A stretch of 64,000 nucleotides of DNA. Source: Methylomonas sp. Lineage in GTDB: Bacteria > Pseudomonadota > Gammaproteobacteria > Methylococcales > Methylomonadaceae. A program made the position numbers and the translations under genes. Shown piece by piece: positions 4,346-63,722 of this stretch; position 1 is the stretch's first letter, and each line of letters starts with the position of its first letter. The stretch lies in contig PERU01000002.1 of assembly GCA_002928965.1 (NCBI GenBank), positions 124,001 through 188,000 of the forward strand, in the 5' to 3' direction. Below the pieces are notes generated by a model. It was not told the origin of the DNA. It did no database searches and saw nothing but the letters and a program-made list of their open reading frames with translations.

Positions 4346-5903
4346 ACGCTACTTTATTTTACATGGCTTGAAATTCCAGGCTTATATTTTATTTTTATCT
4401 GGTTTAGTTATAACTAATGACGTCTTTGCGTTTGATTGGCGTTTGAGGCCTAGTTTGTCTATGAGTGAGGTGTTCACTGATAATTTGCAATTATCTGAAA
4501 ATGCCAAAAAGAGTGGCTTTATTTCTGAAGTAGCTCCTGGTATTTCAATGCAAGGTATTTCACCATGGAGTAATATGGATCTAAATTATAGATTACAAGG
4601 TCTTTATAATGCGGGCGGCAGAGATGCTGTCGATATTAATCACCAATTACAATTCAATTCACTGTACCAAGCATTACGCAATACCCTATTTTTGCAAACT
4701 AACAGTTCAATAAGTCAGCAAAATTCAACTAATTCATTTATAGCTACAGACAATTTGACCGGCAATAATAACAGAGTTGAAACCAAAAACTTTAGTGTTT
4801 CGCCTTATTGGACTCCCCGTTTTGGTCAATATGCGAGTGGTTTATTTAAAATAGGATATAACAAATCCACATTTGATAATGTAAATTCAAGTCTAGGTGC
4901 AAATACTGATTTAGCTATTTCGGATTCGGAATCATTCATAAGACAAGCTAATTTATCTAGCGGTAGTAAGTTTAACACGGTTAGATGGAATCTTGGCTAT
5001 TCTTCAAATGAACAAAGTAGAACTACTGGTAATGATGTGCTTTTCGAACAATATCAAGGGGATGCTCGTTATTTCATCAATAGAAAATACAATGTCTTTT
5101 TTCAAGGCGGTTATGAAAATAATGATTATCAAACTCTAAATAACTCTATTAGCAATGGGTTCTTTTATACGTTTGGTGGTCAGTGGAGTCCCAGTCAATA
5201 TTATTCTTTAGAAGCTGGGTATGGTAATAATAGACATGTAACTGTTCGTTACAATCCTTCTACAAATCTAACCTCAAATATTACTTATCGAAATAAAAGT
5301 GTAGGATTGAACGAGGGGGATTCATGGGATGCAAATTTTAATTACCGAATAAAGCAAGCGATTATAAACTTTACATATTCACAGGAAACCACTACAGTTC
5401 AAAATCAATTGCTGCAGCTTTCCGAACAGTTTAGGGTGTTTGATCAAAATAATATTGACCCTTTAAATCCTTTGTTGAATTTAAACTCACCCAATTTTGT
5501 TGATTCTGTCATTATCAGTAAGAATGCCAGACTAGGCCTTAATTATGCTACAGGTAAAAGTACCTATAATGCCGCTATTTACAATACTCGGCGAAGTTAT
5601 GAGCTAAGCGCTAATGATCAACAAGATGATGTCTACGGCGCAAGTGCTGGTTGGCAATGGCAGTTTCAGCCTAGGGTGAATTTCTATTTGCAACCTACTT
5701 GGCAAACTATTGATAATTCTACATCAAGTAATCAACGTTATGATATTGCACTGGGATTGTCTCGTGCTATTCCTATTAATTTAGGACGTCCTTTGACAAT
5801 GAATACACGACTTGAATTTAGACATATTAATCAAAAGTCTGATTTATCTACTAACGATTTTATGGAAAATCGTGCAACAGCAAATTTTGCAGTTCTTTTT
5901 TAA
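4332..5903 (+). CDS. XrtA-associated outer-membrane beta-barrel protein
   Basis: A predicted outer-membrane beta-barrel of the XrtA locus (TIGR03016 from memory), probably part of the EPS secretion route. After a short signal peptide (hydrophobic run around AYILFLSGLVI, cleavage near VFA-FDW) the protein is a succession of amphipathic strands rich in Asn, Ser, Tyr and aromatic pairs, ending in FAVLF with the typical C-terminal Phe. The frame is open from TTG 4296; ATGs at 4317, 4323 and 4332 are all possible. I chose 4332 because it gives a normal signal peptide, though the purine-rich GGAAAG just before it is very close, so 4323 cannot be excluded. It overlaps the kinase stop. Confidence 0.85.
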   Translation: MDTHKRYFILHGLKFQAYILFLSGLVITNDVFAFDWRLRPSLSMSEVFTDNLQLSENAKKSGFISEVAPGISMQGISPWSNMDLNYRLQGLYNAGGRDAVDINHQLQFNSLYQALRNTLFLQTNSSISQQNSTNSFIATDNLTGNNNRVETKNFSVSPYWTPRFGQYASGLFKIGYNKSTFDNVNSSLGANTDLAISDSESFIRQANLSSGSKFNTVRWNLGYSSNEQSRTTGNDVLFEQYQGDARYFINRKYNVFFQGGYENNDYQTLNNSISNGFFYTFGGQWSPSQYYSLEAGYGNNRHVTVRYNPSTNLTSNITYRNKSVGLNEGDSWDANFNYRIKQAIINFTYSQETTTVQNQLLQLSEQFRVFDQNNIDPLNPLLNLNSPNFVDSVIISKNARLGLNYATGKSTYNAAIYNTRRSYELSANDQQDDVYGASAGWQWQFQPRVNFYLQPTWQTIDNSTSSNQRYDIALGLSRAIPINLGRPLTMNTRLEFRHINQKSDLSTNDFMENRATANFAVLF

Positions 5904-12312: not shown

Positions 12313-14205
12313 ATGTGCGGCATAGTGGGTATTTTTGACATTCACGGTAAATCTGACATTGACCGTGAATTATTGAGTCGAATGAATGAATCACAATTTC
12401 ATCGCGGCCCCGACGAAGGTGGTCTGCATACCGAACCAGGTTTGGGATTTGGTCATCGTCGATTGTCTATTATTGATTTAACCAGCGGTCAACAACCGAT
12501 GCATAGCCAGGATGGCAATGTGGTACTGACGTATAACGGCGAGGTTTACAATTTTCCTGAATTGCGTGAAGAATTACAGTCGCTTGGCTACACATTCAAA
12601 ACCCATTGCGACACTGAAGTCATTCTATATGCTTGGCAAGCATGGGGCGAGGCTTGTGTTGAGAAATTACGCGGTATGTTTGCCTTTGCTATTTGGGATA
12701 GACAGCAGCAAGTCTTATTCTTGGCCAGGGATCGTTTAGGCGTAAAGCCATTGTTTTACGCACAATTATCGAATGGACATTTCATTTTTGGTTCCGAACT
12801 GAAAGCGCTGAAACAACATCCTTTATTACCTAAAACCATTGATCCGACTGCTATTGAAGATTATTTTGGATTTGGTTACATCCCCGACCCTAAAACCATT
12901 TACCAAGGCGTTTACAAATTAGAGCCAGGATATTGTTTAAGTATTCAATCAGGCCAGCAATCTTGGCAGCCACGTCAATATTGGGACGTTAAGTTTGAGG
13001 TAACTCAAGCTGGCGACATCAAAGATGTAGGTGAAGAACTCATCGAACGTTTGCGACAAGCCGTGAAAATTCGCATGGTAGCTGACGTACCATTGGGGGC
13101 ATTTTTGTCCGGTGGCGTGGATTCAAGTGCAGTAGTGGCCATGATGGCGGGTTTGTCGCCGGACCCTGTTAATACGTGTTCCATCTCTTTTGGGGATCCC
13201 AAATTCAACGAATCTGCATTTGCAGCCCAAGTCGCAGAGCGTTATCACACGGCTCATCGCGTTGAACAAGTTGACCCTGATGATTTTAGTTTGATTGATC
13301 AATTATCTAGCTTATACGATGAGCCTTATGCTGATAGCTCGGCATTGCCTACCTACCGTGTTTGCGAATTGGCCAAAAAACAAGTCACGGTAGTGCTATC
13401 CGGTGACGGCGGTGATGAAAACCTAGCGGGTTACCGTCGACATCGCTGGCATACCTACGAAGATCGGATGCGAGCTTTACTGCCGGATGTTGTGCGCGTA
13501 CCGTTATTTTCGACACTGGGTCGGCTGTATCCCAAACTGGACTGGGCGCCCAAGTTTTTGCGGGCTAAATCAACTTTGGAATCGATTGGTCGTGATTCAA
13601 TGGCAGGCTATTTCCATAGTGTGTCTATTATGTCGAACGAGATGCGTGATCAACTGTTTAGTGACGGGCTAAAAAGTCAATTGCAAGGTTATCAGGCCAT
13701 TGAGGTATTTAAGCGCTATAAAGATAAAGCCCCTAAAGATGCATTGTCTATGGTGCAATATCTGGATTTAAAAACCTATCTGCCGGGTGATATCCTCACC
13801 AAAGTGGATAGGGCTAGTATGGCGCATGCCCTGGAAGTCAGGGTGCCGTTGTTGGATCATAAACTGGTGGAATGGATGGCGACATTGCCGCCGGATTTAA
13901 AGCTTAACGGGCGAGAAGGTAAGTTTGTGTTCAAGAAATCGCTGGAATCTTATTTGCCTAACGACATTCTATACCGGCCGAAAATGGGTTTTGCCGTGCC
14001 GCTGAGTAGCTGGTTCAGAGGGCCTTTAAAACAACGTGTGCAGGAAGCTTTGTTAGGGGATACACTGAAAAAAACCGGCTGGTTCAAGCAAGACTTTTTA
14101 CAGCACATTGTCACTCAGCATCAAGCCGGATTGCGCGACTACAGTGCGCCAATTTGGTCGTTGTTGATGTTTGAGGCTTTTTTGAGAAACAATCTTGATG
14201 CGTAA
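12313..14205 (+). CDS. Asparagine-synthetase-like amidotransferase 1, XrtA-associated
   Basis: A glutamine-dependent amidotransferase of the AsnB family. The N-terminal Ntn glutaminase is complete: Cys2 is directly after Met (MCGIVGIFD), with HRGPDEGG and YNGEVYN. The synthetase half has the PPi loop SGGVDSS (266-272) and the GDGGDENLAGYRRHR segment. XrtA loci carry a special AsnB paralogue (TIGR03108 from memory), presumed to amidate a sugar carboxyl or similar group rather than make free asparagine. It starts 21 bp after the glycosyltransferase and closes the first tight gene run. Compare the gene at 20884, which lacks Cys2. Confidence 0.93.
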   Translation: MCGIVGIFDIHGKSDIDRELLSRMNESQFHRGPDEGGLHTEPGLGFGHRRLSIIDLTSGQQPMHSQDGNVVLTYNGEVYNFPELREELQSLGYTFKTHCDTEVILYAWQAWGEACVEKLRGMFAFAIWDRQQQVLFLARDRLGVKPLFYAQLSNGHFIFGSELKALKQHPLLPKTIDPTAIEDYFGFGYIPDPKTIYQGVYKLEPGYCLSIQSGQQSWQPRQYWDVKFEVTQAGDIKDVGEELIERLRQAVKIRMVADVPLGAFLSGGVDSSAVVAMMAGLSPDPVNTCSISFGDPKFNESAFAAQVAERYHTAHRVEQVDPDDFSLIDQLSSLYDEPYADSSALPTYRVCELAKKQVTVVLSGDGGDENLAGYRRHRWHTYEDRMRALLPDVVRVPLFSTLGRLYPKLDWAPKFLRAKSTLESIGRDSMAGYFHSVSIMSNEMRDQLFSDGLKSQLQGYQAIEVFKRYKDKAPKDALSMVQYLDLKTYLPGDILTKVDRASMAHALEVRVPLLDHKLVEWMATLPPDLKLNGREGKFVFKKSLESYLPNDILYRPKMGFAVPLSSWFRGPLKQRVQEALLGDTLKKTGWFKQDFLQHIVTQHQAGLRDYSAPIWSLLMFEAFLRNNLDA

Positions 14206-14270
14206 GTTTTTTCTTTGGCTTACCTTGTACAATCGTGCAATGGACATTTAGTCCGAAATTGTTTAGATTG

Positions 14271-14282
14271 TGAACTAGTTCA
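14271..14282. promoter_or_regulatory. 12-bp perfect palindrome upstream of the twin-arginine protein gene
   Basis: TGAACTAGTTCA is a perfect palindrome 21 bp before the ATG at 14304, between the end of the amidotransferase gene and an AGGGAG ribosome-binding site. Its 11-bp core TGAACTAGTTC recurs at 15196-15206, at the start of the HprK-related kinase gene. It could be an operator; nothing in the sequence names a regulator. Confidence 0.35.
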
Positions 14283-14303
14283 AATATATTAGGGAGATTC
14301 GTA

Positions 14304-14909
14304 ATGAATGTAAAAGACAGCAAGATAGTTGAGTCGGACGAAAGCCAAAATATTAGACAGCCAATGGATAAATCCCGGCGGTCGTTTGCCAAGAAAAGTG
14401 CGGCTATCGCGCCTGTCATTATGACATTGGCTAACCGCTCGGCATGGGGTGGGACAAATATGTGTTCTCAGTCAGGATTTCAGTCGTTCGCTGCCCCCGG
14501 GGCAGTGCTTTCTAATGTGGCTCATGTCAAAAATACCAATTGGAAAACACCCGCCGCTTGGGCTAATGAACCTAGCTGGCCACAAGCATCTGGATTAGGA
14601 CAAGCGACTTTGAAGTCGAACAATTTTGAGTCACCATTATGGAATGGACAGAAATTATTAAGACAAGTTAAAGATTTTGAATCTTTGAATAAGATAATTG
14701 TTTTACGTCAAACTTTTAACGGAAATACTAATACTAATACTGTAACCGTGCTAGCTGCATTATCTTTATCTTCGAGCGATCAAGAAAAATTAAAGGCATT
14801 TCAAATTGCAACGGTTTTAAACAATGCCGTTTCTCCAGTACCTAGTTATTTTTTAACAAGTACTGTAACTTTGTCAGAGTTTCAAACGTTTTATGCTAAC
14901 TGTGTTTAA
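14304..14909 (+). CDS. Hypothetical secreted protein with twin-arginine-like leader
   Basis: I do not recognise a named function. The 201-residue protein has a polar N-terminus, then SRRSFAKKSAAIAPVIMTLA (about residues 24-43) followed by NRSAWGG, which resembles a twin-arginine (Tat) export signal with Arg25-Arg26. The mature part has only two cysteines, Cys54 (TNMCSQSGF) and Cys200 (ANCV at the C-terminus), and a Trp-rich stretch at 80-92 (WKTPAAWANEPSW). There is no PEP-CTERM anchor. The start is well supported by AGGGAG 7-8 bp upstream of ATG 14304. It is immediately followed by PqqD-like, HprK-like and nucleotidyltransferase genes, and small Tat-leader proteins in this position suggest it is the substrate of that cassette. 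That role is inference. Confidence 0.75.
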   Translation: MNVKDSKIVESDESQNIRQPMDKSRRSFAKKSAAIAPVIMTLANRSAWGGTNMCSQSGFQSFAAPGAVLSNVAHVKNTNWKTPAAWANEPSWPQASGLGQATLKSNNFESPLWNGQKLLRQVKDFESLNKIIVLRQTFNGNTNTNTVTVLAALSLSSSDQEKLKAFQIATVLNNAVSPVPSYFLTSTVTLSEFQTFYANCV

Positions 14910-14919
14910 ACGTATGTAG

Positions 14920-15180
14920 ATGGTGAATTATAAATTACAAAAATTTATTTCAGTTGCTGTTTGGGATAATGAGATTACTATACTTCATGAACTGTCTGGT
15001 GATACTTATTTCTATACCGGTTTAGAGCAAAAAATTTTATCTTTATTATTGCAAAATAAGTCCCTTTCAAAGGCTCAATTAGTGACGATGTCTCATGATA
15101 CCTCTATGACTAAAGTTGAGTGGATTGACTATATTGACTCAGCCATTGAGTCTTTCGTTAAAAATGACCTGCTGATTTAG
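14920..15180 (+). CDS. PqqD-like protein of the HPr-rel-A type (RRE fold)
   Basis: An 86-residue PqqD-family protein. PqqD proteins are small winged-helix peptide-binding modules (RiPP recognition elements) that present a leader peptide to an enzyme. The beta hairpin followed by helices is readable in ISVAVWDNEITILHELSGDTYFYTGLEQKIL, here quoted in two overlapping halves: ISVAVWDNEITILHELSGD and TYFYTGLEQKIL. The small size and position between a Tat-leader protein and an HprK-related kinase match the PqqD branch of the HPr-rel-A system (TIGR04353 from memory). ATG 14920 lies 11 bp after the previous stop. The gene ends in TAG at 15178-15180, right against the kinase reading frame. Confidence 0.75.
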   Translation: MVNYKLQKFISVAVWDNEITILHELSGDTYFYTGLEQKILSLLLQNKSLSKAQLVTMSHDTSMTKVEWIDYIDSAIESFVKNDLLI

Positions 15181-15190
15181 AGGTGCCATT

Positions 15191-16114
15191 ATTAATGAAC
15201 TAGTTCCGGTAATTAGTCAGGTTAAAAATGCATTAGATTCTGGGTTAATTGTACATTCTGGGCCTTTTAATTTTTGTGTTAAAAGTAGTATTTCTTCAGT
15301 TGCCGAGAATATAGTTTGCCTATACAGTGAGTCTATAGATTTAGATCAATTAGCCTGCTATCCCTTTGTGGATTTTCACATTACTCTCGATACGCCTAAT
15401 ATTCTGCGGAGATTAATTCATCAGCAGGTTCAGTTTTATCTGGATAATCAGATTGTTTTTAATCCATTTCCTTTGCGCCATGCTACCGCCATGCTCGAAT
15501 GGGGCATGAATTGGTGTGTCTCCACTCAAATTCACACTTTTCTGATTATTCATGCTGCTGTCGTAGAGAAAAATGGATTTGCTGCTGTGCTTCCTGCACC
15601 CCCTGGTTCGGGAAAAAGCACGCTCTGTGCAAGTCTGGTTCAGGAAGGCTGGAGACTGCTGTCGGATGAATTGACTCTGATCAATCTCACGACTGCCGAG
15701 GCTGTACCTGTGCCACGGCCAATCGGCTTGAAAAACCAATCTATAGACATTATCCGACAACGTTATCCGCAAGCGGTGTTTGGGGTGTTGTCGTCCGATA
15801 CTTTGAAAGGCAGTGTTTGCCATTTAAAACCACCGATGCAAAGCATACAAAAACAAATCATTGAATGCCCAATTGGCTGGATTGTTTTTCCAAAGTATGA
15901 AGCCGATGCAGCTACTGAATTACTGCCAAAGTCCAAAGGGCAAGCTTTTATGGAAGTCGCCAATAATGCTTTTAATTACAGCGTCTTGGGTGTGGATGGG
16001 TTCGAGATACTGAAAAAAGTAGTCGATCGGGCGGATTGTTATAGCTTTAAATATAGCAACCTTGATGAGGCGATTGCGGTATTTAATCAATTGGAAGCGC
16101 CGCGTGAAGTCTAG
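15191..16114 (+). CDS. HprK-related kinase A, with a probable non-canonical (ATT) start
   Basis: A P-loop kinase related to HPr kinase/phosphorylase: PAPPGSGKSTLCASL is the P-loop (about residues 136-150 counted from ATT 15191) and LLSDELTLI the HprK-type acidic motif. The first ATG/GTG/TTG in frame is GTG 15368, but the frame is open from 15176. The upstream 59 codons read as a sensible N-terminal domain (NALDSGLIVHSGPFNFCVKS) that fits the family's usual start, so the true gene begins earlier. ATT 15191, 5 bp after GAGGTG (15180-15185), is the best site; ATT 15188 or a +1 shift out of the pqqD-like frame are alternatives. Target probably the cassette's protein or a sugar; unknown. It overlaps the next gene by 11 bp. 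Confidence 0.8.
   Translation: MNELVPVISQVKNALDSGLIVHSGPFNFCVKSSISSVAENIVCLYSESIDLDQLACYPFVDFHITLDTPNILRRLIHQQVQFYLDNQIVFNPFPLRHATAMLEWGMNWCVSTQIHTFLIIHAAVVEKNGFAAVLPAPPGSGKSTLCASLVQEGWRLLSDELTLINLTTAEAVPVPRPIGLKNQSIDIIRQRYPQAVFGVLSSDTLKGSVCHLKPPMQSIQKQIIECPIGWIVFPKYEADAATELLPKSKGQAFMEVANNAFNYSVLGVDGFEILKKVVDRADCYSFKYSNLDEAIAVFNQLEAPREV
15196..15206. promoter_or_regulatory. Second copy of the TGAACTAGTTC palindromic core
   Basis: GAACTAGTTC (15197-15206) is a perfect 10-bp palindrome inside the first codons of the HprK-related kinase. With the preceding T it repeats 11 bp of the 14271-14282 site about 925 bp upstream. Recurrence of the same palindrome at two gene starts of one cassette is suggestive, but two sites could be chance. 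Confidence 0.3.
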
Positions 16115-17189
16115 CTGGCCTCTATTGATTACGGTGTTGCGCAAGGAAAAAGGCTTTGACTCATTATCTTTGCCAGAATGGGATTTGTTGCTGCGTCAAG
16201 CCCGGCGTTGTCAGTTGGTCGGTCATTTATTTTATCGGCTTGAAGCATTGGATTTACTCGCTACAACCCCAGTTGGGCCTCTCAGACATCTGCAATCGGC
16301 TAAAGTCCAGACATCCAAACAACTTCGAGATTTTTTATGGGAAGTGGGAAAGCTTGTACAGGCCTTTTCCAACACAGGCTGCGCATTATTACTATTGAAA
16401 GGCGGTGCGTATGCGATAGCAGAGTTGGCTCCGCACAAAGGCCGCTTGTTTTCTGACATAGATTTACTAGTGCCTTTTGAGGTGATCAACGACATTGAAC
16501 GGTCTTTGTTGATTCATGGTTGGTTGCCTGAAACTACTGCCGATTACGACCAGCAATACTACCGCCACTGGATGCATGAAATTCCGCCGTTACAGCATGT
16601 TAAACGTGGCAGTGTGGTCGATTTACACCACAATATCCTGCCCAGAACCGCCAAAGCCTGTCCGGATCCGACATTATTGCTTGAAGCAGCCGTTGAGTTG
16701 CAGGGCGAGCATCAGGGGATAAAAGTACTGTCTCCGCTGGATAGAATCATCCACAGCGCTACGCATTTATTCTATGAAGGTGAATTTGATAAGGGGTTAC
16801 GTGATTTGGTAGATTTGGACGGATTGATTGCAGAATTGGGTGCAGAAGCCCGCTTGCAATTGGTTGACCGAGCACAACAGATCGGGTTGCAGCGTCCTGT
16901 CTATTACGCTTTGCGTTATCTAAGTCTGATCCTCAACACAAAAGGGCTTGAAGACGCCATGCATAAAATGCAAGTTTTGGGTTTTGTGCCAAACTATATC
17001 AAGCTGATGGATGGTTTATTCCTGAGAGCCTTAATGCCGGATCATTTGAGCTGTGATGACGGATTTACCGCCCTTGCACGTTGGTTGCTGTATGTACGTT
17101 CGCATTGGTTAAAAATGCCATTGCACTTACTTATTCCGCATTTAACTAGAAAGCTTTGGATGCGCGTGACAGGCCAGGAACAACATTAA
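16104..17189 (+). CDS. Nucleotidyltransferase-family protein of the HPr-rel-A cassette
   Basis: A member of the large NTP_transf_5/fukutin-like nucleotidyltransferase group (PF14907 type). The active-site pattern is visible as LLLKGGAYAIAELAP followed by RLFSDIDLLVPF, with the two metal-binding Asp of the DxD in SDIDLLV (about residues 117-123), and later VVDLHHNILPR. The frame opens at TTG 16062, but GTG 16104 has GGAAG at a good distance and overlaps the kinase stop by 11 bp, so I take it as the start (361 residues). HprK-related kinase, PqqD-like and this enzyme usually travel together; relatives also sit in lasso-peptide clusters. Substrate unknown. Confidence 0.82.
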   Translation: MKSSWPLLITVLRKEKGFDSLSLPEWDLLLRQARRCQLVGHLFYRLEALDLLATTPVGPLRHLQSAKVQTSKQLRDFLWEVGKLVQAFSNTGCALLLLKGGAYAIAELAPHKGRLFSDIDLLVPFEVINDIERSLLIHGWLPETTADYDQQYYRHWMHEIPPLQHVKRGSVVDLHHNILPRTAKACPDPTLLLEAAVELQGEHQGIKVLSPLDRIIHSATHLFYEGEFDKGLRDLVDLDGLIAELGAEARLQLVDRAQQIGLQRPVYYALRYLSLILNTKGLEDAMHKMQVLGFVPNYIKLMDGLFLRALMPDHLSCDDGFTALARWLLYVRSHWLKMPLHLLIPHLTRKLWMRVTGQEQH

Positions 17190-17227
17190 TTTATCGGTAG
17201 ATATTTTAAGACTGAACTTATCAACAC

Positions 17228-18445
17228 ATGAAGATTCTGCATATTCTTGACCATTCCATTCCGCTGCATAGTGGCTACACCTTCCGGACTCTAAGTATCC
17301 TGGCAGAACAACACAAATTAAGCTGGGAGACTTTTCATGTCACGTCTGCCAAACATTTGGGTACACGAGCAGCGATTGAAACTGTTGATGAATTGACGTT
17401 TTATCGTTCGATTCCGCCGGAAGGCATATTTGCCAGTTTACCGGTTCTTAACCAGTGGGCTATCGTACAAAGCCTGGAAAGACGGCTGGATGAAATCATC
17501 CCAGAAATCAAACCGGATATTTTGCATGCTCATTCACCGGCATTAAATGGGCTGGCGGCTTTAAATGTATCCAAAAAATATAATATCCCTTTGGTTTATG
17601 AATGCAGAGCCTTTTGGGAAGACGCCGCTGTTGATCACGGTACCACCCAAGAAGGCAGTTTGCGTTATCGGCTGACTAAAATGTTGGAAACGTATATTTT
17701 CAAGAACGCGAATGCTGTCACCACGATTTGCGAGGGTTTGCGAAAAGATATTATTAGTCGTGGGGTTTCGGCTGACAAAATCACGGTTATTCCAAACGCA
17801 GTCGATATTGAAAAGTTTACCTTTGGCGAGCAACCCTCTCCAGCATTGCTGGAAAAATTGAATCTTGTAGATCAAACGGTATTGGGTTTTATCGGTTCAT
17901 TCTATGCCTACGAAGGCTTGCTTCTATTGTTGGATGCTCTCCCTGAGATTATTCAGCATAATCCAAGTGTTCGATTGCTCTTGGTTGGTGGCGGGCCACA
18001 GGATAAACAAATTAGAAGTAAAGTTGCTGCAATGGGATTACAAGATAGTGTCGTTTTGACGGGGCGTGTCCCTCATGACCAAGTCCAGCAATACTACAAT
18101 TTAGTGGATGTTTTTGTATATCCAAGACTATCCATGCGACTCACTGATCTTGTGACCCCTTTAAAACCACTGGAAGCCATGGCACAGGGTAGAGTGCTGA
18201 TTGCCTCAGATGTGGGGGGGCATCATGAGCTTATTCAGGACAAGGTTACCGGTTACTTGTTTAAAGCAGGGGATAGAACATCATTGGCGGAAACCGTGAG
18301 TTATGCCATTAATGATCGAGCTAATTGGGATAAATTGCGCTTGGCTGGTAGGCAGTATGTAGAAGGAGAGCGTAATTGGTCGGTCAGTGTGAATCTCTAT
18401 AAGGCTGTTTATGAAAAGTGCAATAACCGAACCCAGAGCAAATAA
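17228..18445 (+). CDS. Glycosyltransferase, exosortase A-associated (GT4)
   Basis: A GT-B fold, GT4-family glycosyltransferase. The N-terminus HILDHSIPLHSGYTFRT is characteristic of an XrtA-linked subfamily (TIGR04063 from memory). Donor-site features are GFIGSFYAYEGL in the second domain and TDLVTPLKPLEAMAQGRVL with the usual Glu, then VGGHHEL. It follows the nucleotidyltransferase by 38 bp and overlaps the next glycosyltransferase by 35 bp. Sugar transferred unknown. Confidence 0.9.
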   Translation: MKILHILDHSIPLHSGYTFRTLSILAEQHKLSWETFHVTSAKHLGTRAAIETVDELTFYRSIPPEGIFASLPVLNQWAIVQSLERRLDEIIPEIKPDILHAHSPALNGLAALNVSKKYNIPLVYECRAFWEDAAVDHGTTQEGSLRYRLTKMLETYIFKNANAVTTICEGLRKDIISRGVSADKITVIPNAVDIEKFTFGEQPSPALLEKLNLVDQTVLGFIGSFYAYEGLLLLLDALPEIIQHNPSVRLLLVGGGPQDKQIRSKVAAMGLQDSVVLTGRVPHDQVQQYYNLVDVFVYPRLSMRLTDLVTPLKPLEAMAQGRVLIASDVGGHHELIQDKVTGYLFKAGDRTSLAETVSYAINDRANWDKLRLAGRQYVEGERNWSVSVNLYKAVYEKCNNRTQSK

Positions 18446-19520
18446 TAGCTTGAGCATTGGCTTAGTGGGGCCTTTACCTCCACCGTTTGGTGGGATGGCT
18501 AATCAAACCAATCAATTAGCCAGTTTGCTAAAGTCAGAAGGGATTCAGGTTGTTTTGGTGCAAACCAATCCCCCTTATCCAAATCTATTGTTGTCAAAAA
18601 TCAAAGGTGTCAGAGCCTTGCTGCGCTTACCTTTGTATGTTCGTGAGCTTTGGAAGGTAACGGCACAAGTTGATTGCTTACATGTCATGGCAAATTCAGG
18701 TTGGTCATGGCAATTATTTGCAGCACCTGCAATATGGATTGGCTGGCTAAGAGGTGTACCAGTAGTGGTTAATTATCGTGGAGGAGAAGCAGCGGTCTAT
18801 CTCAAAAAATCTATAAGGTTCGTTTCGCCGACATTAAATAAATGTTCGGCTTTAATCGTGCCATCTCCTTTTTTAAAAGGAGTCTTTGAGCGATTCGGGT
18901 TTTCTGCCGAGGTAATCCCCAATGTTGTTGATTTGAATAGATTTACTTTTAATGCGCGCAGAAATGTCCATGATATTAAATCTCCCATTATTGTAATTAC
19001 ACGTAACTTAGAGGAAATTTACGGTATTGAAGTAGCCATTAATGCAATAGCTATAGTTAGAAATAAATTTCCCGGTATTAAAGTATTTATTGCCGGAAGT
19101 GGGCCTCTTGAAAAAAAGCTTATAGCTCTTGCTGAGGATAAAGGTCTGGTGTCAAATATTGTTTTTACTGGCAAGTTAACACCGGATGAGGTATCTGAGT
19201 TATATAGAAAAGCAGACATAATGTTAAATCCGACTACAGTAGATAATATGCCAAATTCTGTACTTGAGGCATTGGCCTGTGGCTTAGCTGTTGTTTCCAC
19301 TAATGTGGGTGGGATTCCATATATTGTGCAAAATGAGTACACGGCGTTATTGGTTGAAATTAATGATTTTGAAATGATGGCCGACAAGATAGAGCAATTG
19401 ATTAATGATCCAAAACTATATGAAAAATTGGTTTTCAATGGACGGAGCTATGTAGAACAATACGGTTGGAATATTGTTAAAGATCAATGGCTTGATTTAT
19501 ATAACAGGCTTATCGCATGA
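18411..19520 (+). CDS. Glycosyltransferase family 4 protein
   Basis: A GT4 glycosyltransferase of 369 residues: acceptor-side motif GPLPPPFGGMANQTNQL near residue 20, donor-site FIAGSGPLEKKL, then NMPNSVLEALACGLAVVSTN with the catalytic-region Glu and VGGIPYI. ATG 18411 lies inside the end of the previous gene with AAGG just upstream; an in-frame TTG at 18450 is a less likely start. Its end overlaps the adenylating-enzyme gene in ATGA. From about 18900 the codon use becomes more AT-rich than in the neighbouring genes. Sugar unknown. Confidence 0.88.
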   Translation: MKSAITEPRANNSLSIGLVGPLPPPFGGMANQTNQLASLLKSEGIQVVLVQTNPPYPNLLLSKIKGVRALLRLPLYVRELWKVTAQVDCLHVMANSGWSWQLFAAPAIWIGWLRGVPVVVNYRGGEAAVYLKKSIRFVSPTLNKCSALIVPSPFLKGVFERFGFSAEVIPNVVDLNRFTFNARRNVHDIKSPIIVITRNLEEIYGIEVAINAIAIVRNKFPGIKVFIAGSGPLEKKLIALAEDKGLVSNIVFTGKLTPDEVSELYRKADIMLNPTTVDNMPNSVLEALACGLAVVSTNVGGIPYIVQNEYTALLVEINDFEMMADKIEQLINDPKLYEKLVFNGRSYVEQYGWNIVKDQWLDLYNRLIA

Positions 19521-20875
19521 CATTCGGTATTTACACAGTTTTTTGCTCAAATGTGCTGTTTCCATTACACGAAGCATTAAAAAAACATAGTACGGTTCGC
19601 GTACGTCGCGAAATGGAACAGAATCAATGGCTGACTCCAGAGCAAATTAAACAGTTGCAATTAGACAAGTTGAAAACGTTCCTGGTTGATGTAAATCAGC
19701 ATGTGCCTTTTTATCAGCAACTATTTGCCAATATTGATTTTGATCCCAACAAATTGCAGGATTTAGCTGAATTAGCCCGATTACCTTTATTGGATAAGGC
19801 TACCATCAGAGCCAATACTGAGGCGTTCAAAGCCCATGATGCTCAGGGCTTGGCTCGGTTCAATACGGGAGGCTCCAGTGGGGAACCGTTAATTTTTTAT
19901 ATTGGCCGAAAGCGTGTCAGTCATGATGTGGCGGCCAAGTGGCGGGCCACCCGCTGGTGGAATGTTGATATTGGTGATCCTGAAGCTGTCATTTGGGGAT
20001 CGCCGATTGAACTGGGTTCTCAAGATAAAATTCGTTTGTTACGCGACAAGTTTTTAAGAACGCATCTGATACCCGCTTTCGAAATGTCGTCTGAAAAGCT
20101 TGATGGTTTTATTCAGCAGATTCAGCGTATCAAACCAAAGATGCTGTTTGGCTATCCTTCTGCGTTAGCGCATATAGCTGCACACGCTGAGAAAAACAAT
20201 ATTGTTTTGAATAATTTGGGTATCAAAGTCGCTTTTGTTACCTCCGAGCGACTTTACGATCACCAGCGCGAAAAAATCCAAAGCATTTTTGGGTGTCCTG
20301 TTGCCAATGGTTATGGCGGTCGAGATGCGGGCTTTATTGCTCATCAATGTCCTCAAGGTGGTATGCACATTACCGCTGACGATATTATCGTGGAAATTGT
20401 TGACTCAAATGGGCAAGCTTTGCCGGTTGGAGAGCTAGGTGAAATTGTCGTTACTCATTTGGCTACCCGGGATTTCCCCTTCATTCGTTATCGTACCGGT
20501 GATATGGGTGTATTGTCCGCTAAGGTTTGTGGCTGTGGCCGGGGGCTGCCGCTTTTGGCAGAAGTCCAGGGACGCACAACCGACTTTGTGGTGGCTCAGG
20601 ATGGCACAGTTTTGCATGGTTTATCCCTTATCTACGTATTGCGTGATTTGGAAGGGGTGGATGCATTCAAGATTACCCAGGAAAGTTTGGAATTGACCAA
20701 AGTGCAAATCGTTAAAGCAATGGGTTACCAGCAAGAGCTTGCAGAAGCCAGAATTACTAACGAGTTTAAAAAACGCTTGGGATCAACCGTTAACATTGTG
20801 ATCGAATACCCTGATCAGATTAGTAAAGAGAAATCAGGAAAATTCAGATACGTTATCAGTCACGTCAAACCCTAA
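19517..20875 (+). CDS. PaaK/CapK-like adenylate-forming enzyme
   Basis: A member of the phenylacetate-CoA ligase / CapK branch of adenylate-forming enzymes, which activate a carboxylic acid as acyl-AMP. Seen are the phosphate-binding loop FNTGGSSGEPLIFYIG (about residue 115), NGYGGRDAGFIAHQCPQGG (adenine/acyl region), IRYRTGDMG (ribose-binding Asp) and a C-terminal Lys-containing segment KEKSGKFRYVI. At 452 residues it is a complete single-domain enzyme. No carrier protein is adjacent. It is ATGA-coupled to the glycosyltransferase and 8 bp from the Cys-less asparagine-synthetase-like gene, suggesting that acyl activation and amide formation are linked steps. The acid is unknown. Confidence 0.85.
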   Translation: MTFGIYTVFCSNVLFPLHEALKKHSTVRVRREMEQNQWLTPEQIKQLQLDKLKTFLVDVNQHVPFYQQLFANIDFDPNKLQDLAELARLPLLDKATIRANTEAFKAHDAQGLARFNTGGSSGEPLIFYIGRKRVSHDVAAKWRATRWWNVDIGDPEAVIWGSPIELGSQDKIRLLRDKFLRTHLIPAFEMSSEKLDGFIQQIQRIKPKMLFGYPSALAHIAAHAEKNNIVLNNLGIKVAFVTSERLYDHQREKIQSIFGCPVANGYGGRDAGFIAHQCPQGGMHITADDIIVEIVDSNGQALPVGELGEIVVTHLATRDFPFIRYRTGDMGVLSAKVCGCGRGLPLLAEVQGRTTDFVVAQDGTVLHGLSLIYVLRDLEGVDAFKITQESLELTKVQIVKAMGYQQELAEARITNEFKKRLGSTVNIVIEYPDQISKEKSGKFRYVISHVKP

Positions 20876-20883
20876 ACAAAACC

Positions 20884-22665
20884 ATGACTCTATTTGCCGG
20901 CTGGATGAGTGGCGACACGCGCCATGACAATCAAAATGTATTAAATAAAATGAATTCAGCAGCTGGACTAGCTGTGTTTAAAGGCTCTGGATACGCATTG
21001 AATGTGTCAGAAAGCCTCACTCAGCAAGCGGGCGAGTGCGTTTTAACGGCTTTAAATACCACGGTTAAAACAGCACAGATTTTGGCTGGTTTGAATACTT
21101 ATCAGCAGCGAGGCATTGAGTTTCTGGCGTTGCCAGACTCAATGTTTGGCTTGGTCTTGATTGATCCTCAGCGAAAATCAACAGTTTTGGCTACTGATCC
21201 GCTGGGGGTATGCCATATCTACTATGCGCAGACCAATAATGGAATTGTATTCGGCTCCAGTGCCGATTTTGTAATTCGCCATCCCGATGTCAGTGACGAA
21301 ATATCCGCACAATCGGTTTATGATTACTTTTACTTCCACCATTGTCCCAGCCCCAATACCATCTATCAGCAGGTCAAAAAACTGGAGGGTGGGCAATATC
21401 TGCTCTATCAAAATGGCCAGATAACCTTGAAGCGTTATTGGCAACCGCGTTTTCAGGAGCAAATGTCGGGCAATCTTCAGCAGGCAGGCCAGGAATTACA
21501 GCAATTGTTGGTTGATGCCGTCAAAGGTATGGTTGACACTGAGGATAATACCGGCGCATTTTTAAGTGGTGGTTTGGATAGTTCGAGCGTGGCTGGGGCA
21601 TTGTCTAAAGTTTTTCCGGGCAAAGCCAAAACCTTTTCGATGGGCTTTCCGGTAGAAGGCTATAACGAAATCGAATACGCCAACATTGCCGTCAAACATT
21701 TCAATACTCGGCAACATGAATATTACGTGACGCCGGAAGATACGGTTAGCGCGGTGCCGTTAATAGCTAACTATTATGATGAGCCTTTTGGCAATTCGTC
21801 TGCGTTGGCCGCCTATTACTGCGCTAAATTGGCCAAAGAAAATGGCGTGAGTCGTTTAATGGCGGGTGATGGTGGCGATGAGATTTTTGCGGGTAACGAG
21901 CGTTACGCCAAGCAAATGTTGTTTGAACATTACCATCGCTTGCCAGGATTTGCGAAATCCGCTCTGGAAGCAGGTTTAAATTACTTACCAGACTCACTAA
22001 CCAAAACCAAATTGCCCTTTAAAGCCAAGCGCTATATCGATCAAGCCAATGCAGCCATGCCTGATCGTTTGCAGGACTATAATTTTCTGCATCGGCATGA
22101 TGTTAAGGATATTTTTTTGGCCGATTTTCTGGGAAAAATTGATACGGGCGAACCTTTGAAACTGTTACGAGAGTGTTATCAAAGACCGGAACACGCCAGC
22201 ACCTTAAATCGCATGCTCTACATGGACTGGAAAACCACTTTGCATGACAATGATCTGGTCAAGGTCAATCGTATGTGCGAACTGGCTGGGGTCGAAGTTT
22301 GTTATCCCTTGCTCGACCAGCGGATTGTGGATTTATCTTGCCGGATTCCTTCCAGCAGCAAACTGAATGGTCAAAAATTACGTTGGTTTTATAAACAGGC
22401 AATGGCTGATTACCTGCCGGAGCAAATTATCAATAAATCCAAACATGGCTTCGGTTTGCCGTTCGGAATCTGGCTGAAGGATCACCAGCCTTTAAAAGAG
22501 TTGGCTTATGATGCCATCCATAACTTAAAAAAACGCGACTTCTTCCAGCCCAAATTTCTCGATCATGCGATTGAGATGCATCAAAGCATCCATGCAGCCT
22601 ATTACGGTGAATTGATCTGGGTTCTGATGATGCTGGAATTATGGTTTGCCGGTAAAGGCCGTTGA
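20884..22665 (+). CDS. Asparagine-synthetase-like protein lacking the glutaminase Cys
   Basis: An AsnB-family protein of 593 residues with both domains, but it begins MTLFAGWMSGD: the catalytic Cys2 of the glutaminase is absent, and the N-terminal half is divergent though still AsnB-like (DPLGVCHIYYAQ, FGSSADFVIRHPD). The synthetase half is intact: SGGLDSS (228-234), GDGGDEIFAGNERYAK, and KVNRMCELAGVEVCYPLLDQ. Relatives without the Cys (beta-lactam synthetase, lasso-peptide cyclase) adenylate a carboxylate and form an amide with an amine other than ammonia from glutamine. I infer a similar job here. Its stop abuts hemJ on the other strand with no spacer. Confidence 0.88.
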   Translation: MTLFAGWMSGDTRHDNQNVLNKMNSAAGLAVFKGSGYALNVSESLTQQAGECVLTALNTTVKTAQILAGLNTYQQRGIEFLALPDSMFGLVLIDPQRKSTVLATDPLGVCHIYYAQTNNGIVFGSSADFVIRHPDVSDEISAQSVYDYFYFHHCPSPNTIYQQVKKLEGGQYLLYQNGQITLKRYWQPRFQEQMSGNLQQAGQELQQLLVDAVKGMVDTEDNTGAFLSGGLDSSSVAGALSKVFPGKAKTFSMGFPVEGYNEIEYANIAVKHFNTRQHEYYVTPEDTVSAVPLIANYYDEPFGNSSALAAYYCAKLAKENGVSRLMAGDGGDEIFAGNERYAKQMLFEHYHRLPGFAKSALEAGLNYLPDSLTKTKLPFKAKRYIDQANAAMPDRLQDYNFLHRHDVKDIFLADFLGKIDTGEPLKLLRECYQRPEHASTLNRMLYMDWKTTLHDNDLVKVNRMCELAGVEVCYPLLDQRIVDLSCRIPSSSKLNGQKLRWFYKQAMADYLPEQIINKSKHGFGLPFGIWLKDHQPLKELAYDAIHNLKKRDFFQPKFLDHAIEMHQSIHAAYYGELIWVLMMLELWFAGKGR

Positions 22666-23091
22666 TTAAAACGGTTTCATGACTGCCAGCCAGATGATGG
22701 CAATCAGAAAGATCACCGGCACCTCATTCATCCATCGATAGTAAACATGACTGCGTTGATTGCGGTCATGTTTAAAATCCAGCAGCCATTTGCCACACCA
22801 GATGTGGTAAATCACCATCACAACCAATAACGAAAGTTTTACATGCAACCAGCCTGCGGTTGAATACATGGCCCAGGCGTAATCGGCCAGCATCCAGATG
22901 CCAAATGCCAACGTACAAATCATCCCAGGGGTCATAATCCCGTAATACAGCTTGCGTTCCATGACTTTAAAACGTTCGTTGCTAATATCATCGTCGCTCA
23001 TGGCATGGTAAACATACAGCCTTGGCAGATAAAACAAGCCTGCAAACCAGGTCACCATAAATATCAAATGTATTGCTTTCAGCCACAGCAC
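22666..23091 (-). CDS. hemJ: HemJ protoporphyrinogen IX oxidase (CopD-like membrane protein)
   Basis: A 141-residue inner-membrane protein of the HemJ/UPF0093 family, which oxidises protoporphyrinogen IX to protoporphyrin IX in haem synthesis. It has four or five hydrophobic helices, the N-terminal MLWLKAIHLIFMVTWFAGLF with the conserved His8, FYLPRLYVYHA, and a C-terminal RWMNEVPVIFLI segment, all family hallmarks. Full length. It is a housekeeping gene convergent with the EPS genes: its stop codon and that of the upstream gene are directly adjacent. Confidence 0.92.
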   Translation of the reverse strand: MLWLKAIHLIFMVTWFAGLFYLPRLYVYHAMSDDDISNERFKVMERKLYYGIMTPGMICTLAFGIWMLADYAWAMYSTAGWLHVKLSLLVVMVIYHIWCGKWLLDFKHDRNQRSHVYYRWMNEVPVIFLIAIIWLAVMKPF

Positions 23092-62222: not shown

Positions 62223-63722
62223 ATGCAGACAATCGACATAATACCGCTGTATTGGCGTAAGCCATTGGTGTTACTGCTGACTGTATTGGTCGTTTTTGTA
62301 CTGATGTTTCAAGATAGTTGGAATTCGATTGTCAGTATTTGGTCTCGATCAGAGACTTTTGCCCATGGTTATCTGGTGGCTCCTGCCAGCCTATGGCTGC
62401 TATGGACCCGAAAAGACTTTTATAAACAGCTTTGTCCTCAGCCAAGTTATTTAGGCTGTCTAGGTGTGTTAGCGTGCGGTTTTATTTGGTTGGTAGCTGA
62501 TTTGGCCCAGGTTTTGGTCGTTAACCAATTTGCTTTAGTGGGAATGCTGCTCTGTTTGATCTGGAGTTTGTTAGGCAATAAAGTTACAGGGAGCATGTTG
62601 TTTCCATTGTTTTTTCTGTTTTTGATGGTGCCATTTGGCGAAGACTTCGTGCCATTTTTGATGGAATACACCGCGAGTTTTGTGGTGGGTATGTTGCATT
62701 TAACTGGCGTCACTGTCTATCGGGAGGGTCTGCATTTCACACTGACTTCTGGAAATTGGTCAGTTGTTGAGGCTTGTAGTGGCATTCGTTATCTGATTGC
62801 CTCTATCACTTTGGGTTTGGTTTATGCCTATTTCAATTATTCAAGTTACCGAAAGCGTGTAGTATTTATTTTGGCTTCTGTTTTAGTGCCTATCGTTGCT
62901 AATGGTTTACGAGCCTATATGATTGTCATGATTGGCCATTTAAGCAGTATGAAATTGGCCACAGGGGTTGATCATATTGTCTACGGTTGGGTGTTTTTTG
63001 GCTTGGTAATGTTGTTGTTGTTTTATATTGGCTCTTTTTGGCATGATGAAGCTGTAAGCTCAATGACTAAAATAGATCAGACTATTCCCGTCGAGTTTCC
63101 TCGATATTTTTCCGTAACCTTGGGTGTGGTGGTTTTTGCATGTTTTTCGGTCTGGCCTTGGGTGGCATCTGAATTGCACGCCAAACAAGCAGTTAAGGCC
63201 ATTATTCCTGAGACATTGCTGCAAAAAATACCTGATGAACCGGCTTTATTGCCAGATTGGCAATGGCAACCGCATTTTAAAGGCACTGTTGCTGACAAGG
63301 CACGATTCGTAGAACAGGATGGAGCGGTTTTGGGTATCTATATCGCCAATTTTGGGGACGAAACACAGGGGGGGGAGTTGGTCAATTCTCAAAACACTCT
63401 GTTATCACATGAGGATAAGGATTGGAGATTGATTTTGAACCCTAGCTTGGCTATTAACTGGCCTGCTAAAGTTGTAAAAGTTGAGGAGGTAGCTTTAAAA
63501 AATGATGCCAATGACCTGTTGGTGCTGCGTTGGTATCGTATTGGTAGTGTCAATACCTCAAATGCTTATTATGCAAAGTGGTTGCAACTGCGTAAGCGTT
63601 TGACTGGGGATACTACACCTGAACTTATGATCGTGCTTTACACACAAGCTTCTCGTGGTGATTATTTACTTGCCCGAGAACGCTTGCAAAAAATTGCCTT
63701 AGCCTGTTGCTCAGCCAATTAA
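62223..63722 (+). CDS. xrtA: Exosortase A with EpsI-type C-terminal domain
   Basis: The transpeptidase/protease of the PEP-CTERM system, in the inner membrane. The N-terminal 270 residues have about eight hydrophobic helices and the catalytic set: Cys185 in VVEACSGIRYL, Arg230 in IVANGLRAYMIV and His251 in TGVDHIVYGWVFF. The C-terminal part (about 300-499) is a soluble EpsI-like domain, ending TQASRGDYLLARERLQKI. The fused form at 499 residues is normal for exosortase A. ATG 62223 lies downstream of GGGAG; the frame is open to TTG 62208. Divergent from the ligase gene. Confidence 0.95.
   Translation: MQTIDIIPLYWRKPLVLLLTVLVVFVLMFQDSWNSIVSIWSRSETFAHGYLVAPASLWLLWTRKDFYKQLCPQPSYLGCLGVLACGFIWLVADLAQVLVVNQFALVGMLLCLIWSLLGNKVTGSMLFPLFFLFLMVPFGEDFVPFLMEYTASFVVGMLHLTGVTVYREGLHFTLTSGNWSVVEACSGIRYLIASITLGLVYAYFNYSSYRKRVVFILASVLVPIVANGLRAYMIVMIGHLSSMKLATGVDHIVYGWVFFGLVMLLLFYIGSFWHDEAVSSMTKIDQTIPVEFPRYFSVTLGVVVFACFSVWPWVASELHAKQAVKAIIPETLLQKIPDEPALLPDWQWQPHFKGTVADKARFVEQDGAVLGIYIANFGDETQGGELVNSQNTLLSHEDKDWRLILNPSLAINWPAKVVKVEEVALKNDANDLLVLRWYRIGSVNTSNAYYAKWLQLRKRLTGDTTPELMIVLYTQASRGDYLLARERLQKIALACCSAN

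Follow-up and report, generated by a model that had tools for sequence, protein, structure and literature searches.

A Tat-leader protein as the probable substrate of an HPr-rel-A-type kinase cassette in Methylomonas

The ribosomally synthesized and post-translationally modified peptides (RiPPs) called LPPs, which are stated to be restricted to Bacillota, are made by clusters that encode a RiPP recognition element (RRE), an NTP transferase, and the HprK-like kinase LppK, which phosphorylates Ser3 of the core peptide and adds several phosphates (Popov et al., 2026; PMC13381572). In the lasso peptide pseudomycoidin, PsmK and PsmN place a phosphate and then one or two hexoses on a serine (PMC9266682; PMC8498205). 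A third system, HPr-rel-A, is defined by the models TIGR04352 (HprK_rel_A, a kinase) and TIGR04353 (a PqqD family), and neither the model names (as distinct from their curated comments) nor the open-access literature searched assigns it a substrate or function. A text search of that literature returned no publication naming HPr-rel-A or its families and none joining exosortase and PEP-CTERM to HprK, exosortase to PqqD, or an HprK-related kinase to PqqD, and PMC12710340 mentions neither HPr nor a kinase. Here we analyze an HPr-rel-A-type cassette in 64,000 nucleotides of Methylomonas sp. DNA (the window; GenBank assembly GCA_002928965.1, contig PERU01000002.1, positions 124,001 to 188,000), where a 201-residue protein with a twin-arginine translocation (Tat) leader, hereafter the partner, is encoded just before a PqqD-like protein, an HprK-related kinase, and a nucleotidyltransferase. 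We propose that these last three proteins probably constitute a RiPP-like protein-tagging system that acts on the partner before its export, with the LPP RiPPs and pseudomycoidin as its nearest precedents.

The original prediction described a series of genes running from the Tat-leader protein to an asparagine synthetase paralogue at positions 14271..22665, and all of them are present, on the + strand and in the order claimed. The partner, PqqD-like, kinase, and nucleotidyltransferase genes form one tight run. The partner gene (14304..14909), encoding the putative substrate, matched no Pfam or NCBIfam family in library scans, and among 32 aligned members, including the window protein, no family matched more than one member (best E 0.004); a profile from which the window protein had been held out recognized it with E 1.8e-22. 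Reading by eye and comparison of leaders place a Tat signal at SRRSFAK...APVIMTLANRSAWGG, with the SRRSFAK motif at residues 24-30 (14373..14393), and its twin arginine, hydrophobic stretch, and signal-peptidase-like end are features by which the partner is predicted to be a Tat substrate. Alignment of homologues identified the motif C54-S-Q-S57-G-F-Q-S61 (14463..14486) downstream of this signal.

The PqqD-like protein (14920..15180) scored 19.4 bits against TIGR04353 in a library scan, below the cut-off of 35, and a Pfam scan returned no family at E 0.1; we assign it as a divergent relative of the HPr-rel-A PqqD family and a putative RRE because of its position, its SGDT motif, and its alignment with 17 relatives. 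The kinase (~15188..16114) scored 362.8 bits against TIGR04352, well over the curated cut-off of 200. Its frame is open from 15176 to the stop at 16114, and the profile already matches from about 15251, before the first ATG, GTG, or TTG at 15368; an ATT start at 15188 or 15191, preceded by an AGAGG-like site, is therefore probable. Automatic gene callers would shorten the window kinase, as it has no ATG, GTG, or TTG before 15368; in most of the relatives' frames listed, one of these codons is available in the corresponding stretch. The adjoining nucleotidyltransferase (~16104..17189), which has a GR..SDxD center and overlaps the kinase stop if GTG 16104 is its start, matched PF14907 (NTP_transf_5) with 165.4 bits and E 2.2e-48. 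Between 14100 and 17400 we counted 12 promoter-like sites (shuffled mean 7.7) and 3 terminator-like sites (shuffled mean 2.5), none of them usable.

Several observations tie the partner to the kinase. First, the two genes are linked almost constantly. TIGR04352 was over cut-off in 41 of the 369 genomes of a class sample, and in 35 of them a partner profile built from a 32-row alignment (A2) had a same-strand match within the 2.5 kb upstream of the kinase, although four of the matches (G286, G057, G323, G314) cover little beyond the leader. Five more genomes (G134, G015, G213, G091, G303) have a Tat-leader open reading frame (ORF) by reading, and in G259 the contig begins just before the PqqD gene, which makes the partner untestable; the class total is thus 40 of 40 testable genomes. 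The held-out profile, trained on 29 other rows, found the partner upstream in 79 of 80 named loci (taken from 581 confirmed loci) and none anywhere else in the 1.47 Mb covered (11,677 open segments), a count that is not fully independent because at least four named loci share an identical partner with training rows (L002/L037, L008/L073, L005/L081, L020/L057). A first, iterated profile gave 108 of 110 loci, the same 80 and 30 unnamed ones. In a phylum sample of 349 genomes, 58 were over cut-off and 54 of these were new; 53 were fetched, one was cut by a contig end, and 46 of the remaining 52 had a partner, 35 by profile (E ≤ 0.001, some of them close to this limit), 10 by reading, and 1 in divergent orientation. 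Among near relatives, 32 of 61 genomes were over the kinase cut-off, and the partner was present in 30 of 31 loci examined (30 of those genomes plus L029); L164 ends, with its contig, 115 nt upstream of the kinase. Left out of the counts were G582 (phylum sample, kinase cut at the contig start), the relatives G394 and G399, and L278 and L279 (contig ends).

The other cassette genes are nearly as regular. PqqD was found in 108/110 loci (exceptions L036 and L099), and the nucleotidyltransferase was downstream in 108/110 and, by reading, upstream on the opposite strand in L025 and L027. Plasmids of Vibrio alfacsensis and Sphingomonas parapaucimobilis, the two records opened of four that matched, also carry the kinase, the nucleotidyltransferase, and a Tat-leader protein whose only annotation is hypothetical; the Sphingomonas record lists a PqqD gene, and the Vibrio record, whose gene table may be incomplete, does not. 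The Tat-leader protein is thus the usual partner of the cassette, as had been predicted.

Searching from the partner's side gave a more divided picture of the expectation that its homologues would not occur apart from the cassette. Of 55 partner-profile matches in the class genomes, 35 lay beside an over-cut-off kinase and 20 did not, most of the latter being partial or short: just one of the 32 near-full-length matches was unlinked (G296:C20), seven unlinked matches covered the C-terminal half alone, in frames of up to 1352 residues, and twelve were short or leader-only, several of them beside kinase relatives scoring below the cut-off. One C-terminal-half match is in the window's own genome (G000:C18), and such matches mean that the GYW...AALLNA part is not exclusive to the cassette. 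The combination of leader, serine motif, and body is nearly exclusive to it.

Second, the partners share a strongly conserved serine motif. In type-1 partners, C-x-x-S-G-x-x-S-G-N stands just after the leader (C54, S57, and S61 in the window); across 108 partners the Cys after the leader is conserved at 0.98 and three Ser positions at 0.95, 0.97, and 0.84, and a PGYW stretch, WP, and AHxVAALLNA are also conserved. In a 78-row alignment chosen from the partners found, with leader-only and type-2 rows left out, the serine at window S61 (S65 of the L033 protein) occurs in 78 rows and that at window S57 (L033 S61) in 77, the second twin arginine in 78 and the first in 77, at a mean column identity of just 14%. 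Type-2 partners, mostly outside the window's class, have a like leader, an unrelated body, and, close to the C terminus, a C-x-x-S whose next residue is F, L, or I in 46 of 49. Sorting 183 distinct partners by motif rule gave 112 of type 1, 49 of type 2, and 22 unsorted, with L108, sorted as type 2, reading rather as type 1; the partners of L025 and L251 have, by eye, cores of only ~12 to 20 residues.

Third, motif type follows the kinase tree, as expected if kinase and motif are matched. On a quick tree reduced from 189 to 156 rows by removing kinases shorter than 200 residues and same-label near-copies (128 rows labeled, L241 by hand), type changed 4 times, compared to a shuffled mean of ~35, and none of 500 shuffles was as low. 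Leader and motif are kept while the rest of the partner changes rapidly. For 22 same-genus loci (231 pairs), mean identity was 58% for leader plus motif, 49% for the kinase, and 28% for the body, with shuffled bodies at 21%; in pairs whose kinases are 80-90% alike (n=10), leader plus motif was 96% and the body 44% identical, and when kinases are >90% alike (n=7) the body reached 93%. A fixed tag on a rapidly changing body suggests that the partner may be exposed at the cell surface.

The kinase and nucleotidyltransferase look active, judging from their sequences. All 30 kinases compared, the window's among them, keep the His, the Walker-A Lys, and both acidic residues (Asp and Glu) of SDE; lasso kinases require an H-K-D-D set (PMC9266682), in comparison with which the fourth position here is Glu. 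The nucleotidyltransferase elements KGxAY, GR, DxD, and YYRxWMHE are at least 97% conserved in 109 rows. A profile of the PqqD-like protein and its 17 relatives matches the structures of the lasso RREs TbiB1 and TfuB1 and of a PqqD-family chaperone. The kinase profile also matches HPr kinase/phosphorylase, and this distant homology would fit a regulatory HprK/HPr-like phosphorelay unconnected to the Tat protein; the match is weak, 19.7 bits over the P-loop region alone, and the usual companions of the kinase are an RRE and an export-signal protein, which makes such a relay very unlikely.

In the mechanism we propose, the twin-arginine signal of the partner would double as a leader peptide. The PqqD-like RRE would bind the hydrophobic part of this leader, at an APxI-type stretch (APVIMTL in the window, after SRRSFAK), and present the unfolded partner to the HprK-type kinase, which would phosphorylate a motif serine after the leader, in the window S61 or, less likely, S57. 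The nucleotidyltransferase would then extend that phosphate with a nucleotidyl or sugar-phosphate group. The tagged partner would be exported by the Tat pathway and lose its leader to signal peptidase, so that the tag would end up close to the new N terminus. We infer each of these steps, from RRE binding and phosphorylation through the second reaction to export, as well as the function, which would concern the cell surface of bacteria, most of them also equipped with XrtA/PEP-CTERM polysaccharide machinery. On the same substrate, the final tag might be a nucleotide (AMP-like) or a plain oligophosphate and not a sugar phosphate. PF14907 is named as a nucleotidyltransferase family, lasso and LPP kinases add several phosphates (PMC9266682; PMC13381572), and a review leaves nucleotidylation open for PsmN (PMC9266682), but knock-outs assigned the phosphoserine hexose to PsmN (PMC9266682; PMC8498205); we regard such a tag as a serious possibility, from which we lean slightly away.

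Comparison of leaders suggests that the Tat signal could indeed serve for RRE binding. The RRE motif of lasso and LPP leaders is [YW]xxPx[LVIAFY] (PMC13381572), and in 135 of 181 partner leaders a P has I, L, V, or M at the second position after it. Short Tat-leader ORFs of ~57-91 aa stand beside below-cut-off kinase relatives at six loci (L142, 4576-4749; L143, 4346-4564; L144, 6976-7203, where PqqD and NTP_transf_5 are also present; L145, 5653-5853; L146, 4434-4706; L217, 5045-5218). L142-L146 were fetched because the partner profile matched there; among 20 further below-cut-off kinase loci (L204-L223), a similar leader occurs in L217 alone. L158 has two more such ORFs (4640-4846 and 5292-5516) and no kinase seen at the locus; they are possibly orphan precursors served in trans. 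The full motif is exact in seven of these eight short leaders, two of the eight being the L158 orphans, and L217 is without it. The short ORFs may encode small RiPPs whose Tat signal, in all but L217, contains the lasso-type RRE motif exactly. L205 and L213 have an RR leader of another kind, and in L205 it begins two tandem ORFs (1224-1586 and 1804-2151), which have tails rich in threonine and lie close to a kinase relative and to what looks by eye like a nucleotidyltransferase; these ORFs possibly represent another substrate class.

The cassette sits within an XrtA/PEP-CTERM polysaccharide cluster that begins upstream of 14271..22665, where TIGR03027, 03007, 03018, 03016, 03015, 03006, 03019, 03087, and 03108 were all over cut-off. 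XrtA itself (62271-63047) lies ~40 kb from this first part of its cluster, with many other genes between. Genome-wide, XrtA passed its cut-off in 35 of the 41 genomes with the kinase and in 38 of the remaining 328 (odds ratio 44.5, Fisher 1.4e-22, uncorrected for relatedness). At the level of the locus the linkage is looser: in flanks of up to 10 kb, less at contig ends, at least one XrtA-cluster gene is present in 25/80 named loci and at least three in 21/80.

These numbers bear on two other accounts of the partner. In one, the two enzymes, kinase and nucleotidyltransferase, have some other molecule as their target (a sugar, a polysaccharide intermediate, or a different protein), and the partner is a co-regulated surface protein instead of the substrate. 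XrtA-cluster genes in the flanks, genome-wide XrtA co-occurrence, and six phylum genomes with no recognizable partner all fit this account. It is nevertheless distinctly unlikely, as the partner persists in other settings (55/80 loci have no XrtA-cluster gene in their flanks), RREs are known as leader-peptide binders (PMC13381572), and the motif type of the partner tracks the kinase tree. In the other, the partner is a protein-linked acceptor for surface polysaccharide: its motif serine receives a phospho-sugar while still in the cytoplasm, and once Tat has exported the protein, this tag tethers or primes polysaccharide of the XrtA/PEP-CTERM matrix, with the fast-changing body as a strain-specific surface. 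We consider this unlikely as well.

Downstream of the nucleotidyltransferase are two glycosyltransferases (one TIGR04063, at 624.3 bits, the second GT4), an adenylating enzyme resembling PaaK/DVU_1553 (162 bits against a cut-off of 300), and the asparagine synthetase paralogue, which begins MTLFAG and therefore lacks Cys2. The adenylating enzyme and the Cys-less synthetase had been suggested to belong to the cassette as an adenylating/amide-forming pair, and we reject them as parts of it. A PaaK-like gene is near 1/80 named loci and the paralogue near 3/80. In the same-genus genome G395, which has no TIGR04352 match, asnB and a TIGR04063-type glycosyltransferase lie ~505 bp apart with no cassette gene between, PaaK follows, and no second asparagine synthetase was seen within 14 kb. 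This comparison points to gain or loss of the cassette as a unit, and these results together define a cassette of four genes. PaaK would look kinase-linked if one genus alone were examined, because it lies ~4.4 kb downstream of the kinase in most same-genus kinase genomes.

A trypsin-like/HtrA-type serine protease occurs near the cassette in 22/80 named loci (for example, L058 7307-8128) and directly upstream of the partner gene in L160; the single representative scanned contains PF13365. It is a possible processing enzyme.

A number of points weigh against the tagging system proposed here. Modification in the cytoplasm of a Tat substrate before it folds is an assumption, and the chemistry of tagging is drawn from sequence and analogy. 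The aromatic residue of [YW]xxPx[LVIAFY] is in none of the 181 partner leaders, that of the window included, and the short-leader examples are of selected origin, five of six having been fetched through profile matches. Neither the PGYW motif nor the family's second conserved Cys is present in the window protein, and the type-2 reading depends on a short motif. The kinase tree is a quick one, and clade history by itself also clusters motif labels; the XrtA co-occurrence figures likewise ignore phylogeny. Fifteen partners in the class and phylum samples were assigned by eye. The substrate link of the original prediction fits a kinase that lacks a partner in none of the 40 class genomes and, by the held-out profile, in one of 80 named loci; it fits less well with the 6 of 52 phylum genomes that have no recognizable partner nearby (G484, G496, G443, G535, G676, G622). 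In the initial phylum fetch, 9 of the 52 testable loci gave no match to the PqqD profile; four of the nine (L263, L265, L267, L268) have the partner, and extending the fetch brought up no partner at the remaining five. At five phylum kinase loci (L281-L285), neither PqqD nor partner was found, and the nucleotidyltransferase is present in four of the five, being weak in L283.

HPr-rel-A is a named system for which we found no job, even though 41 of 369 class genomes contain its kinase at a score above the cut-off, and a near-constant partner with a strongly conserved serine motif offers a testable substrate and site. If the proposal is correct, the logic of an RRE-guided kinase and nucleotidyltransferase would extend beyond small peptides to proteins of ~200 residues, which would leave by the Tat pathway with the export signal as leader peptide. 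The exosortase/PEP-CTERM polysaccharide world, to which 35 of the 41 kinase genomes belong, would likewise gain a component.

How does this locus compare with known systems? As in HPr-rel-A, the window has a TIGR04352 kinase over cut-off adjoined by a PqqD-like protein and a nucleotidyltransferase, the latter taken as an HPr-rel-A feature from the loci examined here and the original prediction and not from model comments; the PqqD-like protein is placed as expected and carries the motif, but scores below its cut-off. What the present analysis adds to HPr-rel-A is the partner with its Tat leader, the two types of motif, and the connection to XrtA. ScmC and ScmD of SynChlorMet (TIGR04249/TIGR04248) are also kinase-like and PqqD-like proteins and gave weak cross-matches, with scores far below the cut-offs.

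A lasso-like system, as first suggested for this locus, would fit the match of the PqqD profile to lasso B1 structures and the presence of kinase and nucleotidyltransferase genes in lasso clusters (PMC8498205). Paeninodin and pseudomycoidin are modified by an HprK-type serine kinase and then a nucleotidyltransferase-like enzyme that adds hexose, and their C-terminal serine resembles the motif of type-2 partners (PMC9266682; PMC8498205). Unlike in those systems, no lasso cyclase or B2 leader protease was found here: the window's own genome contains no Transglut_core3 match, and no gene scanned exceeded the lasso-cyclase cut-off of 525 bits, with the asparagine synthetase paralogue at 130 and the neighboring AsnB at 264. 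The partner, moreover, is 201 residues long, and the paralogue is rare near other loci. We therefore reject the lasso reading; a true lasso-peptide system is extremely unlikely.

The LPP RiPPs offer a further comparison. A discrete RRE, an HprK-like kinase, an NTP transferase, and surroundings rich in polysaccharide genes are common to both (PMC13381572), and the first three, the RRE by way of its relatives' profile, are present in the window. The LPP phosphoserine lies near the mature N terminus (PMC13381572), where the motif serine, proposed here to be phosphorylated, is likewise placed. LPP clusters encode a signal-peptidase-like protease of their own, as well as an MsbA-like exporter, and the one LPP studied is a 45-residue linear peptide (PMC13381572), whereas the leader found here is of the Tat type and most partners are the size of proteins. 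General scans of genes 12313-23091, with no search targeted at these functions, revealed neither an LPP-type protease nor an MsbA-like transporter, and export by Tat would explain why both are missing from the cassette genes. The system seems, on balance, to be a new and mostly protein-sized variant of the RRE/HprK/NTP-transferase kind of RiPP, with a Tat leader.

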